Origin: a virus
Virus record (IMG/VR): IMGVR_UViG_3300031403_000021
Span: 1 to 38,226 of that record
DNA: 38,226 bases
Strand: one strand, 5' to 3'
Shown one piece after another: positions 4,554 to 38,226 of this stretch (position 1 is the first letter of the stretch; every line of letters starts with the position of its first letter). The translations under genes were made by a program, and so were the position numbers. The notes below the pieces were generated by a model that did no database searches, was not told where the DNA came from, and worked only from the letters and a program-made list of their open reading frames with translations.

Positions 4554-4596
4554 AATAAATCACTTGAATCAATACATGATTATAAATTTTTATAAT

Positions 4597-4705
4597 AAAA
4601 AAATCCGTAGATTGTGATAGTGGTGTCGCACTCACTGGCAAGAGCGACTATGATAGTTGGGTATCACAAGGCAAAGCCCCCCACCATCACAACCCACGAA
4701 CTTCA
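4597..4705 (-). ncRNA. Structured intergenic RNA with four-way junction
   Basis: Minus-strand RNA closed by a 12-bp stem with one G-U pair (4612-4623 with 4681-4692). Inside are three hairpins: GTCGC/GCGAC (4625-4629, 4644-4648), GATA/TATC (4652-4655, 4662-4665) and GGC/GCC (4670-4672, 4676-4678). It is followed by AATC-UACG-GATT, a UNCG-type tetraloop hairpin, and U7 (4597-4603), a plausible intrinsic terminator. A weak promoter-like pair, TTGATA (4731-4736) and TATGGA (4710-4715, spacing 15), lies upstream. No open frame crosses it. It could be a free small RNA or a leader controlling the gene starting at 4553. No known RNA family recognised; it does not fit a tRNA. Confidence 0.65.
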
Positions 4706-5050
4706 TTAGTCCATAGCACAATAACGGTGGTATCAAATCCTTAAATCTGACATAATTCTACATACTCCATTAAACTCTATTCCATTTGTCATCACTCTAC
4801 AATCTCACACATAGGCACTTATCTTTTTTCATTCTAATTCTCCTACTCTTTCATCAGTATTCTTAATACTGTTTTCATCAAGCCACTTTTTCATTTTCTT
4901 CAAATGACATTTTTTAGTAGTAAAGAAAGTTTCTAGGTTTGGGTCATTCGCCTCTCTTCAACTAATCTCCATCACCTTCCCTTTCTCATTCATACTCACA
5001 ACTACTCTGCAATCCATTTTGTCATTGCATAGATACATTAATTTTTCCAT
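4706..5050 (-). CDS. Hypothetical Cys-containing protein, 114 aa
   Basis: Starts MEKLMYLCNDKMDCRVVVSM and has further Cys/His residues (KKCHLKKMKKW, GVCRIM, YHRYC), so metal binding is possible. It ends TAA directly before the structured RNA. Start context includes TTATTATTAATAA. No family recognised. Confidence 0.6.
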
Positions 5051-9870: not shown

Positions 9871-10137
9871 TTACGCCTTAGAACAACCAACACAAATCTT
9901 CTTAGCATCACACAACTTACATTCCTTCCCTAACTCCTCTCATCATAAATATAAACTCACCTGGTAACTCATATCAACTTCTCCACTCATTCACTCTACT
10001 TCTATACCGGCAATGAATCTTGTGATTCACTCACCACACCATCTAACATTCATCACATTATACTCTCTCCATTCTCACTCACCATCTTTCATCCTGGCAA
10101 CCATCTTACTCTCCTTATTAATTTCTACCAACTTCAT
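9871..10137 (-). CDS. Protein with C-terminal zinc site, 88 aa
   Basis: Ends CKLCDAKKICVGCSKA, a CxxC-x5-CxxC metal site at about residues 73-85. The N-terminal part is beta-rich (KMVARMKDGEGEWREYNV). It overlaps the start of the preceding gene's end by 20 bases. Function unknown. Confidence 0.6.
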
Positions 10138-10348
10138 TACTCCTAACATAAGAAACTAAATCAGGCAAATAACTTCTCTTCCATGCAACTCATTCTTTCT
10201 CATCTGATTCCTTCTGCTTCATCATCTCTCTATCAAATTCATAATACTTTCAAGAAATCATGATTCAACCAGTAAATCTTGCAATAGCTAACTGTGAATT
10301 GCACCAATATCTATAATAGATTCTTCACTGTGTATCTTCTCATGCCAT
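10118..10348 (-). CDS. Hypothetical protein, 76 aa
   Basis: Starts MAGEDTQGRIYYRYWCNSQL and has ARFTGGIMISGKYYEFDREM, then a basic Trp/Tyr-rich end. An overlapping frame at 10352 is shorter and less likely. No family recognised. Confidence 0.5.
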
Positions 10349-10365
10349 CACATGTATCAAAAAAA

Positions 10366-10575
10366 CTAAACTGTATACTCCAACACTACCATCTCCATTA
10401 CTCTATCTATACCTCTATTAAATCATCTCTCATTCTCATCCCTAGGGTTGCAATATTTTTCTCCATTCATTCTATTTAATAACACCTCCACTAACTCTCA
10501 TCACTCTTCAATCATTTCACTTCTTTTATCTTCTTCCTCCTGCCACTTCAACCATTCATAATATCTCTTATTCAT
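10366..10575 (-). CDS. Hypothetical protein, 69 aa
   Basis: Helical and charged: MNKRYYEWLKWQEEEDKRSE and ELVEVLLNRMNGEKYCNPRD. The start is 25 bases after the zinc-finger gene's stop. No family recognised. Confidence 0.55.
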
Positions 10576-10600
10576 ATCTCCAATAAACAATTAAATATCT

Positions 10601-10801
10601 CTAACCTCATACCATACAATAATCACAAGCACTTCAAAATCATTCCATATCTCTTCAACACACTACACACTCTCACTCTTCTTTTTCTTCCTTATGAAAT
10701 TCCTCGCAACAACTATCTTCTCAACACATGAAAACCCTTACAAAATTATCTGTCATCTCTTTTTCTTCTGTATCTTCTCCACATATCACACAACTTCACA
10801 T
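10601..10801 (-). CDS. Cys-rich zinc-finger protein, 66 aa
   Basis: Three CxxC pairs, SCVICGED (residue about 4), CVVCGRD and CDYCMVGG, plus a CGEDSCCEEFH cluster, suggest one or two structural zinc sites. UGA is the second codon (M-G-S). First gene after the terminator at 10821-10856. Function unknown. Confidence 0.6.
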
Positions 10802-10820
10802 CACCACAATACTACAATCT

Positions 10821-10856
10821 AAAGAAAAGCAACCACCAGGACTTCCCAATGGTTGC
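10821..10856 (-). terminator. Intrinsic terminator
   Basis: Minus strand GCAACCA (10850-10856) pairs with TGGTTGC (10829-10835) across a 14-base loop and is followed by TTTTCTTT. It sits just after the stop at 10864. Confidence 0.65.
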
Positions 10857-10863
10857 CAACCAA

Positions 10864-11190
10864 CTAAGCTAAATTGGTTTCAAATTCTGCAATAGCATCC
10901 TTCAATCCTGGAATCAACTCTTCTGCTACATCCAAAGCATCTCCTAATTTTCATAGGCGAGTTAGCACTTCTGCATCTTCCAATGGTCCACTACTCTTTC
11001 AAGAAAAATTACCATAACTAACAACATTCCCACGAACTTCATGAGGTTGTAGAAAACCAAGTTCCTTCATAGCTTCAACCAAAGCAATCGCAGGCTTCAA
11101 CAACCCATCCATTCCAGAAACTTGAAACAATCTTGCATGCAATACATGCGAAGCCTTCACATCTTTTGCAGTTCTTCTGTAAGTACTCAT
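10864..11190 (-). CDS. Hypothetical protein, 108 aa
   Basis: Starts MSTYRRTAKDVKASHVLHAR, contains GMDGLLKPAIALVEAMKELG and ends EELIPGLKDAIAEFETNLA. Few UGA codons and more GC-rich codons (GCG, CGC, TTC) than its neighbours, resembling the well-expressed structural genes. Followed by a good terminator, so it closes its operon. No family recognised. Confidence 0.65.
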
Positions 11191-11241
11191 AACAATAATT
11201 CATAAGGAATAAAAAACCTTCAACCCTTCTTTGGCATAATC

Positions 11242-11502
11242 CTATACACTACCAAAGGGTCATTCTTTCTTCTTCTGTCTCCAATACTCCAGGCTCAATA
11301 GACATCCAATAAGAAATGTAACCAATAAGGATTCCCAAAAATTAATATAATTGAACTCTCCAAACCTATTCATTATCCAAACAAATCAATTAATAATCAC
11401 TCTTAAAAAAACAGCGAATCACATATAAGCAACCAACATCATTGCAAAATAACTAAGACTTCATGCAACTCACATCAAATCAATTCTCTTTCTTTTACGC
11501 AT
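11242..11502 (-). CDS. Two-segment membrane protein, 86 aa
   Basis: Basic start MRKRKRIDLM, then hydrophobic segments at about 14-40 (SLSYFAMMLVAYMGFAVFL) and 55-72 (FWESLLVTFLIGCLLSLEYW), then a Lys-rich tail: a small inner-membrane protein. Overlaps the 33-aa membrane peptide by 8 bases. Could serve as antiholin, holin or a host-membrane factor; unknown. Confidence 0.6.
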
Positions 11503-11596
11503 AGAACATAGACACAACAAAATAAAAAGCAATAAACACCAGGACTGATGCAATCACTATACTACTAATCACTAAACACTTCTCCAACTTACCCAT
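11495..11596 (-). CDS. Tiny membrane protein, 33 aa
   Basis: A single hydrophobic helix, VISSIVIASVLVFIAFYFVV, covers most of the protein after MGKLEKCL. Uses TAA and overlaps the next membrane protein by 8 bases, which suggests coupled translation. Function unknown. Confidence 0.5.
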   Translation of the reverse strand: MGKLEKCLVISSIVIASVLVFIAFYFVVSMFYA

Positions 11597-11617
11597 CAAT
11601 ACTCATAAGAATAAAAA

Positions 11618-12007
11618 CTAAATATCTCCATTCTCCATTAATCTTTCTATATATCTTCTTATCTCACCTATACTCTCAAATCACTTCCCTACCCTTCACC
11701 TCTTCACCTTCTCCCTTCTTTCCAACAACTCTATCACTTTCCCATTCTGACTATACATGAAATCTTTTATGCTTCACTCCTTTCAATCACACTCCTCACT
11801 AAACCTATACTCCTTCTTATCATACAACTCTCATCCAATCATTATCTTCCCTAGTCAATTATTGGCTGCTAAATCATGGCTTATATCTTCCCAATCATCT
11901 TCATTAACAAATACATGAATATCTTTTAAATACCCATCATCTCCACTCCTTCACTTAAATATTAATCTCCTCTTCTTCTTGTATTCTATTATTCATGTAT
12001 CAGTCAT
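11618..12007 (-). CDS. Hypothetical protein, 129 aa
   Basis: N-terminal beta-rich (TGIIEYKKKRRLIFKGRSGD), then acidic NEDDWEDISHDLAANNG, then a basic helix ELLERREKVKRGRVGKG. Lies directly after the replication initiator; a helper in replication is possible. No family recognised. Confidence 0.55.
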
Positions 12008-12087
12008 AACCCAACAACACTACTAAAGTAAAATAATCATATCAATATTTAAACATAATTCAAGTCTTTTTCAAGTTCAATTCAATT

Positions 12088-12990
12088 CTAGGCACTTGCA
12101 TAACTTCTACCACTTCCACTCTTTTTCTTTTTCTTCATCTCTAATTCAATATAGGTACTGGCTCACTGCAACAATCAAACAAACTTTGGTATCCCATTTT
12201 TCATCTTCTTTCTTAATCCACAAAGGCTTATCAAGTTTCATCTCCAAAACCTACTATCCTGCAAACCAAACTTTAAAGACAATTCAATAGTAGTCCAATT
12301 ATATCCATCTAACCTATTCAATTCCAACAACCCATCTATCCAATCATTCTTAAACTTCTTCTCTCACTTCTTCTTAATCCAATGAACATTTATTGGCTCA
12401 TCACATCTCTCTTCCCAAAACCAACTAGCTATCCTCAATGCTTCACTAAAATTAAACTTTTCTTCCTCTGATAAATCTGTGGTAACCAATGGAGCATTTT
12501 TCTTTTTAACTATAGTAGCATTTTTAGTTTTAACTACTGGAGCATTTAGTACCCCATTTTTACCAGGACTGGGTTTTTCCATGGCATGGTTTTTCGATGG
12601 TATGGGTTTATCATCCATAACCCTCTTTTTTGATGTTATGGTATTACTCCCTATTCTATACTTGTGGTAGATACCAACATAATGTCCTTTAATCCTTCAT
12701 TGCTCATCTAACTTCTTAATACTCTTAATCATTCATAACTCCAACAACACTCACTTAGCTTTCCTAAACTTACCTTCACTCCAGGGCTTTCACTCTCATC
12801 AACAAGCCTTCATCATGAACTTATCTAATGAGAAAGTTTCTTTCGTATCTTGAATCCTGGATTGTCTTAGATACTGAAAGAATAAATAAAAGGCACTATC
12901 ACCATTCTTATAACCTCTGAATAAATCCAAAGTAGGCAAGGTAGTTCCTACCACTACATCAACTCCATTCTCCTCATAACCATAAGACAT
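12088..12990 (-). CDS. Replisome organiser-like replication initiator, 300 aa
   Basis: Residues about 20-95 form a winged-helix region (FYLFFQYLRQSR, then KPWSEGKFRKAKGVLLELGM), as in phage O/DnaD-type initiators. A low-complexity linker follows with a repeated Asn-Ala-Pro/Thr pattern (about 135-175). The C-terminal domain, SEALRIASWFWEERC ... ELNRLDGYNWTTIELSLKFG and DSRFWRGNLIS, has the DG...I...D..FW...I.S pattern of phage replisome organisers that recruit the host helicase. Starts at ATG 12988-12990, 28 bases after the terminator of the structured RNA. No helicase or polymerase was recognised in the genome, so host machinery is likely used. Confidence 0.65.
12480..12560 (-). repeat. Short degenerate repeats in initiator linker
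   Basis: The element GGAGCATTT / GTAGCATTT with flanking TTTTAACTA recurs three times and encodes the linker units NAPVVK, NATIVK and NAPLVT. It is a coding repeat, possibly a flexible tether; an iteron-like origin function cannot be excluded because many phage origins lie inside the initiator gene. Confidence 0.4.
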
Positions 12991-13018
12991 ATTTATATTT
13001 CTTTTTAAATAAACTAAC

Positions 13019-13042
13019 AAAAAAAACCCTATCATCGTAGGG
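13019..13042 (-). terminator. Intrinsic terminator of the structured RNA
   Basis: Minus strand CCCTA-CGATGA-TAGGG followed by eight T. One of the cleanest terminators of the genome. Confidence 0.8.
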
Positions 13043-13130
13043 CTTCTTTTTGATTGGTGTATTTCCTTCTATTCGTTTCCATACCGTAGGGGGTACTTCC
13101 TGCCCTACAAGGAATATACACACCAACTAA
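13019..13130 (-). ncRNA. Structured RNA with own promoter and U8 terminator
   Basis: A promoter at 13136-13163 should start this RNA near 13129. Its ends pair: TTGGTGT and TTCCTT segments of 13109-13126 with 13054-13068 (7 + 6 bp around an internal loop). A 6-bp stem, GTAGGG/CCCTAC (13103-13108 with 13086-13091), lies inside, and TACC/GGTA (13082-13085, 13092-13095) can form an alternative helix or pseudoknot. It ends with CCCTACGATGATAGGG (13027-13042) and U8 (13019-13026). No reading frame is needed to explain it. The terminator stands 28 bases before the replication initiator ATG, so it may be a free small RNA or an attenuating leader. No known family recognised. Confidence 0.7.
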
Positions 13131-13135
13131 TAAAT

Positions 13136-13163
13136 CTTATAATTATCCTTTTTACTTTTTCAA
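13136..13163 (-). promoter_or_regulatory. Promoter of structured RNA / replication initiator
   Basis: Minus strand TTGAAA (13158-13163), 16 bases, TATAAG (13136-13141). The -35 lies in the last codons of the gene at 13152-13610. It lacks the AGACA extension of the late promoters. Confidence 0.65.
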
Positions 13164-30796: not shown

Positions 30797-30829
30797 ACAA
30801 TAGCATACTTCCTATTTTTTTCAATGTCT
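30797..30829 (-). promoter_or_regulatory. AGACATTGA-type promoter of scaffold and capsid
   Basis: AGACATTGA (30821-30829), -35 TTGAAA (30819-30824), 16 bases, -10 TATTGT (30797-30802). The -35 region also codes the last residues (RHGKK) of the preceding gene. Confidence 0.7.
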
Positions 30830-37378: not shown

Positions 37379-38125
37379 CTATATTCCTCTGTAGGGAATC
37401 TTTACAACTGGGTTTGTGCTTCTTGCAAAATCATACTTCACTACATCTCACCACTTCTCCTTCATTATCTCGGCTTGTTTCTTCTCTCTATCCAATGTCC
37501 TATATGCTCCACATCATCACTTATCTTTTATATGCCCACAGGTATAATGCCACTTGTTACATCTCAATACTTTTCAATCTCTATGGCACATCTGAATAAA
37601 TAAATCATAATCTTCATTCAATCCCAACCTCTCATCATACCTTATATCACCTAACTTACCCATAACTATGCAGGTAAAAGGTCATAGAACAGGGCTATGG
37701 AAGCTATATGGGGTATACTCCCTATAAAACTTTGGGTCACTCTGTAAATTTATTCCAAATAATCCTATATCCAAATCCATACACATCTTCCACATATCCT
37801 TAATCTTCCGATATATATCTTCATAGTTCACTTCATTCTTCACCATATCTTCATAATATCCCACACTCTTCACATCATCATCCATTAACACACATACATC
37901 ATCACCATTCTTCTTACTATACTCTACCATCCAATTCCTCACCTTAGCCATATTCCCTTTCAACTTATCACTCATAATCAACACACTCTCCTTCCCATAC
38001 TCTGCTACATACCCATCTGCTTCAAATTCATGCACACAAATCTTCACACCTGGTATCAATTTATTCACCTCCACTCCTCACACTCTCTTGTATGATGGCG
38101 TATAGTATCATATCTTATATCCCAT
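37379..38125 (-). CDS. TET-associated-type glycosyltransferase, 248 aa
   Basis: N-terminal YTPSYKR (residues 8-14; family pattern IPSYKR), DVCVLMDDDVKSVGYYED with the acidic DxD-like metal/nucleotide-sugar site near residue 80, and the C-terminal NEDYDLFIQMCHRDGKVLRC (about 168-187) with GGCGAYR match the GT-A-like phage family often found with base-modifying enzymes. It follows the ParB-like gene with a 2-base gap. It may glycosylate DNA bases; no TET/JBP or thymidylate-type enzyme was seen, so another target is possible. Start ATG 38123-38125 follows the ParB stop; in the left copy (92-94) the 5-base insertion shifts the frame and an internal ATG would give MILYYTPSYKR. Confidence 0.75.
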
Positions 38126-38226
38126 GATTAATCCATCAACCTTTCTAAAAATTTCCCTCAATCAATTACTCTTCCTATTCCACTCCTCACATATCCAGGC
38201 TTAGCATCTTTTGCCTTCACTGTTTT
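38037..38226. repeat. Right copy of the contig self-overlap
   Basis: Matches window positions 1-195 apart from the 5 missing bases. In this copy the ATG next to the ParB stop is in frame with the glycosyltransferase. Confidence 0.9.
38128..38226 (-). CDS. ParB-like protein, 3' end (duplicate of 97-195)
   Basis: Partial copy of the end of the ParB-like gene, ending TAA at 38128-38130; it is cut by the window end. It is the same gene as 97-711 when the genome is closed. Confidence 0.85.

Follow-up and report, generated by a model that had tools for sequence, protein, structure and literature searches.

A structured leader segment ending in an intrinsic terminator precedes a replication initiator-like gene in a TGA-recoded phage

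The stretch of DNA analysed here, which we refer to as the window, is the whole of a 38,226-base virus record. Translated with the standard code, its minus-strand frames are broken into short pieces, whereas decoding TGA as an amino acid yields long, tightly packed minus-strand open reading frames. Since TGA occupies the position at which ParB-like proteins carry the Gly of their GHGR consensus, the codon is read as glycine, judging from the sequence, as it is in Gracilibacteria and Absconditabacteria. Genes for capsid, portal, terminase and tail proteins identify the window as a tailed phage, and the TGA = Gly code, together with a 45% identical capsid gene carried by a Gracilibacteria MAG contig (L186), leads us to infer a Gracilibacteria-type bacterium as its host. 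The main genes lie on the minus strand, where G very strongly exceeds C (GC skew approximately −0.6 over the whole window; C makes up approximately 7.5% of the coding strand). This extreme strand asymmetry is common to fragments L099 and L100 and is absent from more distant relatives. Elsewhere in the window, the minus-strand gene at 37379–38161 encodes a protein matching the beta-glucosyl-HMC-alpha-glucosyltransferase family (E = 4.8e-19), which could possibly act in DNA modification.

On the minus strand, the gap between the open reading frame P0002 (13152–13619, function unassigned) and the initiator gene P0001 (12088–12990) is filled by a structured unit. The first-pass annotation had noticed a structured segment and a terminator ahead of the initiator, without giving a strand; both are real and both lie on the minus strand. 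The region 13015–13134 folds at −39.5 kcal/mol (z = −4.87, none of 200 shuffles as good), the second-best fold on the coding strand in 120-nt windows, with only 4591–4710 scoring better. In the minimum free energy fold the segment 13127–13053 is closed by a 10-bp helix P1 (5′ arm 13118–13127, 3′ arm 13053–13062) and, after a 3-nt bulge, a 6-bp helix P2 (5′ arm 13109–13114, 3′ arm 13063–13068); the two stems described earlier are thus present, but as 10 + 6 bp rather than 7 + 6 bp. Together, P1 and P2 form a 16-bp closing helix around a 40-nt loop. The unit contains 15.5% C compared with the 7.5% coding-strand average, as expected if pairing is selected.

Two nucleotides beyond this folded segment, an intrinsic terminator spans 13050–13019 and consists of a G+C-bearing 13-bp stem with a 6-nt loop, followed immediately by U8 (13026–13019). 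As had been noted from the sequence, the terminator is clean and 28 nucleotides separate its U8 from the initiator ATG at 12990. Terminator and helix each fold better than shuffled sequences independently of the other: the terminator alone has a z of −5.6 (0/500 shuffles) and the element without the terminator a z of −3.3 (2/500 shuffles), while the inner loop taken alone shows no such excess over shuffled sequences (z = −0.67). The element is therefore a real, non-random, structured one with a terminator before the initiator.

A terminator in this position could simply close the transcription unit of P0002, with the helix stabilising the 3′ end of the message and the initiator being served by a promoter of its own. 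This ordinary operon end, which we regard as unlikely, was left out of the first-pass annotation, whose pair of options, attenuator or small RNA, was otherwise well chosen. The unit begins 22 nt past the P0002 stop codon, a weak TTGTTA-17-TATAAA follows the terminator, and a terminator with a promoter-like site after it is also found in the gap ahead of the initiator in the relative G001. However, TTGTTA-17-TATAAA would start transcription approximately 5 nt inside P0001 as called, and, apart from 4578–4705, no other intergenic gap in the window is as C-rich and as structured as this one.

The 40-nt loop holds two competing hairpins. Hairpin A (13086–13108, P approximately 0.62), in which GUAGGG at 13108–13103 pairs with CCCUAC at 13091–13086, corresponds to the inner 6-bp stem of the earlier description and competes with hairpin B (13081–13096, P approximately 0.37), in which GUACC at 13096–13092 pairs with GGUAU at 13085–13081. 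The TACC/GGTA pseudoknot that had been proposed to join the two finds no support: the 3′ strands are contiguous (CCCUAC|GGUAU), and with no linker the loop spanning the 6-bp stem would have zero nucleotides, so that the helices cannot coexist and A and B are alternatives.

Transcription of the unit would start from a candidate promoter, TTGAAA-N16-TATAAG at 13163–13136 (−35 box 13163–13158, −10 box 13141–13136), whose −35 box overlaps the last codons of P0002. By a generic sigma-70 scan, sites in the region are no commoner than in shuffles. The early regions of the phage and its relatives, on the other hand, repeat a TTGAAA-N16-TATAAT motif, often with AC ahead of it, which the candidate matches at 11 of 12 positions, lacking the final T of the −10 box as well as the preceding AC; minus-strand sites matching at 11 or more positions number five, compared with 1.35 expected in shuffles. 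The promoter suggested by the first-pass annotation is therefore plausible when measured against the motif of its own group, but does not stand out by generic criteria. A different motif, AGACATTGAAA, occurs on the minus strand at 30828, 29040, 26380 and 25137 in the structural-gene region and recurs in that of the relatives G001, G006, G010–G012 and G018; it is a candidate element of late promoters and differs from the TTGAAA-N16-TATAAT motif of the early regions.

With the start placed from the position of the −10 box and the end from the terminator, the terminated transcript would be approximately 111 nt long (13019–13129) and has a predicted fold of −38.7 kcal/mol. It would be structured almost throughout, beginning 1–3 nt ahead of the first helix, with the terminator 2 nt beyond the last. 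Such a product could be a stand-alone small RNA, a stable 111-nt molecule acting in trans on a phage or host RNA or protein, in which case its place before the initiator would be incidental, or read-through would supply the initiator mRNA. We consider this somewhat unlikely. It has a precedent in IsrK of Gifsy-1, a phage small RNA that ends at an intrinsic terminator and becomes an mRNA when transcription reads through (PMC4825925), but the promoter is only a candidate, and the RNA has neither a target nor a homologue among those we looked for. The genes downstream of IsrK and of the phage leader are different, and the two sequences were compared only through the Rfam scan described below; action in trans is, for the phage leader, a proposal.

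The gene that follows, P0001, encodes a 300-aa DnaD/O-like replication initiator or helicase loader with 10 TGA codons read as Gly. Its earlier designation as a replication initiator is borne out by a match to phrog_2514, a family of DnaD-like helicase loaders (E = 3.5e-5), and by its homologues, which carry HTH_36 and phrog_2514/391 matches: two genes in Gracilibacteria-class genomes are 30–31% identical to the C-terminal part of P0001 and themselves match phrog_2514 at 1e-15 and 1e-10. The AlphaFold model of P0001 (pLDDT 32) is too poor for use. In the middle of the gene lie three 24-bp iterons with a TAACYANNGKAGCATTT core (12478–12549, plus strand; region listed to 12609), the top-scoring tandem repeat of the window (TRF score 79). 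Iterons are likewise found in the middle of the lambda initiator gene O (PMC7466680), and those of P0001 probably mark a lambda-O-like intragenic replication origin. Lying upstream of P0001, the terminator would then serve as a gate for production of the initiator mRNA and also for transcription across the probable origin. In lambda, we know of no comparable leader, structured and ending in a terminator, immediately ahead of O.

Proximity to a probable origin raises the further question of whether the transcript itself primes or opens that origin through an R-loop, as has been reported for transcripts of some plasmids and phages. We hold this to be very improbable. Promoter, non-coding RNA and terminator do adjoin the initiator, and the DNA strand also folds well (z = −5.1), but the iterons lie approximately 470 nt downstream of the unit, inside the gene, the RNA ends before reaching them, and the unit has no conspicuous AT-rich tract.

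The hairpin tip and the terminator are linked by a computed long-range complementarity. GUAGGGC at 13102–13108 is a perfect complement of the terminator 5′ arm, GCCCUAC at 13037–13043, and each of the two heptamers occurs only once on the coding strand. The duplex has an energy of −14.7 kcal/mol, which is reached by 0.8% of inner-loop shuffles (p = 0.008), by 0.5% of real 45-nt windows and by 0.17% of whole-element shuffles (p = 0.0017); since the match was noticed after looking, these p values are suggestive only. A nested antiterminator, at −18.8 kcal/mol compared with −39.5 for the terminated fold, is not competitive, and an antitermination switch would therefore need a pseudoknot. With P1 and P2 kept and both segments free, the RNA has an energy of −23.4 kcal/mol, and adding the long-range helix (−11.5) gives approximately −34.9 before any pseudoknot penalty, compared with −38.7 for the terminated transcript. 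On these energies termination would be the default and a switch would need help, while a stabilising factor could perhaps bring about the antiterminated form.

The reading that we favour, with a confidence that falls a little short of even, is that of a default-off transcription attenuator, a terminated leader RNA that gates both synthesis of the initiator and transcription of its intragenic origin. Polymerase starting at the 13163–13136 promoter, or arriving by read-through from genes upstream, would make the leader, which would fold into the closed helix with its bistable tip, stop at the U8 terminator and be released as the RNA of approximately 111 nt. Only those polymerases that pass the terminator would yield initiator mRNA and transcribe the iteron cluster, and passage would be favoured when GUAGGGC in the tip is paired to GCCCUAC in the terminator 5′ arm rather than within its own hairpin, a long-range pairing that some protein, RNA or metabolite might stabilise. 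Independent excess folding of helix and terminator, the position of the terminator between the upstream reading frame and the ATG, a pair of heptamers confined to the unit (p 0.002–0.008), a terminated ground state and an initiator-like gene with iterons inside it all speak for this attenuator; the uncompetitive nested antiterminator and the unremarkable fold of the inner loop speak against it. A narrower version, in which the leader represents a new class of RNA switch in a TGA-recoded phage, its tip choosing between its own hairpin and a pseudoknot with the terminator arm as set by a signal, appears doubtful to us.

If the attenuator reading is correct, it would offer a handle on the timing of replication in phages of Gracilibacteria-type bacteria, of which, to our knowledge, few if any are culturable. 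Nor do we know of an RNA gate in a recoded phage with a lambda-like intragenic origin. The leader unit is small and self-contained and is suited to a reporter assay.

In agreement with the initial impression that the RNA belongs to no known family, a search of the whole window against Rfam 15 at the gathering cut-off gave no match, and at a permissive threshold the best was Phe_leader with 24.3 bits, compared with the 55 needed. This also bears on the proposal that the RNA is an antitoxin, as in type III toxin-antitoxin or AbiF-like modules, which we find scarcely credible: such modules have the same order of parts, promoter-RNA-terminator-gene (PMC12373285), but the RNA contains no direct repeats and has no Rfam match, its neighbours have no PADLOC match, and the next gene is initiator-like. 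The CRISPR systems of Gracilibacteria are mostly of type V-A (PMC10746230); inspection of the RNA by eye, with mimicry of a CRISPR repeat in mind, found no Cas12a-type handle.

Homologues of the RNA were found neither in viral contigs, deposited phages and plasmids nor in structurally related phages and 353 Gracilibacteria-class genomes (the class of the MAG mentioned above), which counts against the attenuator; this is weak evidence, since the collections may lack records that closely resemble the window. A single-sequence covariance model, limited in its reach, matched only the window itself when run over the 353 genomes and the relatives, and a core 27-mer of the RNA was not found in viral contigs. 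A degenerate stem pattern gave 26 matches, which resemble hairpins arising by chance, and among the BLAST matches in the 353 genomes the inspected loci are terminator-like or due to chance, none fitting the model. P0001, P0002 and TerL, each used as a single-protein query, found nothing in viral contigs, nor did TerL in genome contigs. Searches with a capsid alignment identified L008, L009, L099–L107 and L186 as relatives, the genes in common being mostly structural; the capsid relatives at 100% and 70% are 6–7 kb fragments that do not include the leader region. The replication region of the window is absent from the relatives with longer genomes; one of them, G001, has a terminator ahead of its own, unrelated initiator but lacks a similar RNA there, which likewise weighs against the attenuator. 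A P0001 alignment search retrieved one distant standard-code initiator (L248). This phage initiator (L248:2494–3216) has a repetitive KPxT linker and possibly encodes intragenic iterons of its own.

While the leader is an orphan in sequence, its layout is of a known kind. Premature termination in the leader of the initiator gene repR limits replication of plasmid pIP501 (PMC4981023), and the phage unit resembles it in having a terminator-bearing leader upstream of a replication initiator. They differ in that control in pIP501 depends on a counter-transcribed antisense RNA, RNAIII, whereas no promoter facing the phage leader was found: there is no plus-strand sigma-70-like site in 10000–13019, and the one at 13115–13143 points away. 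In phage P4, termination ahead of the replication genes is under the control of the CI RNA, a short RNA derived from an untranslated leader (PMC4825925). However, CI RNA is processed, pairs with two sites and causes termination, while the phage leader has one site and its pairing would oppose the terminator.

Finally, nothing on the coding strand of the window folds better than a second intergenic RNA, at 4708–4594 on the minus strand (z = −5.9), for which we found no Rfam match and no homologue. It forms a 24-bp helix topped by three hairpins in a four-way junction and followed immediately by U7; an ATG lies 20 nt further on, the same layout as that of the 13019–13129 unit.
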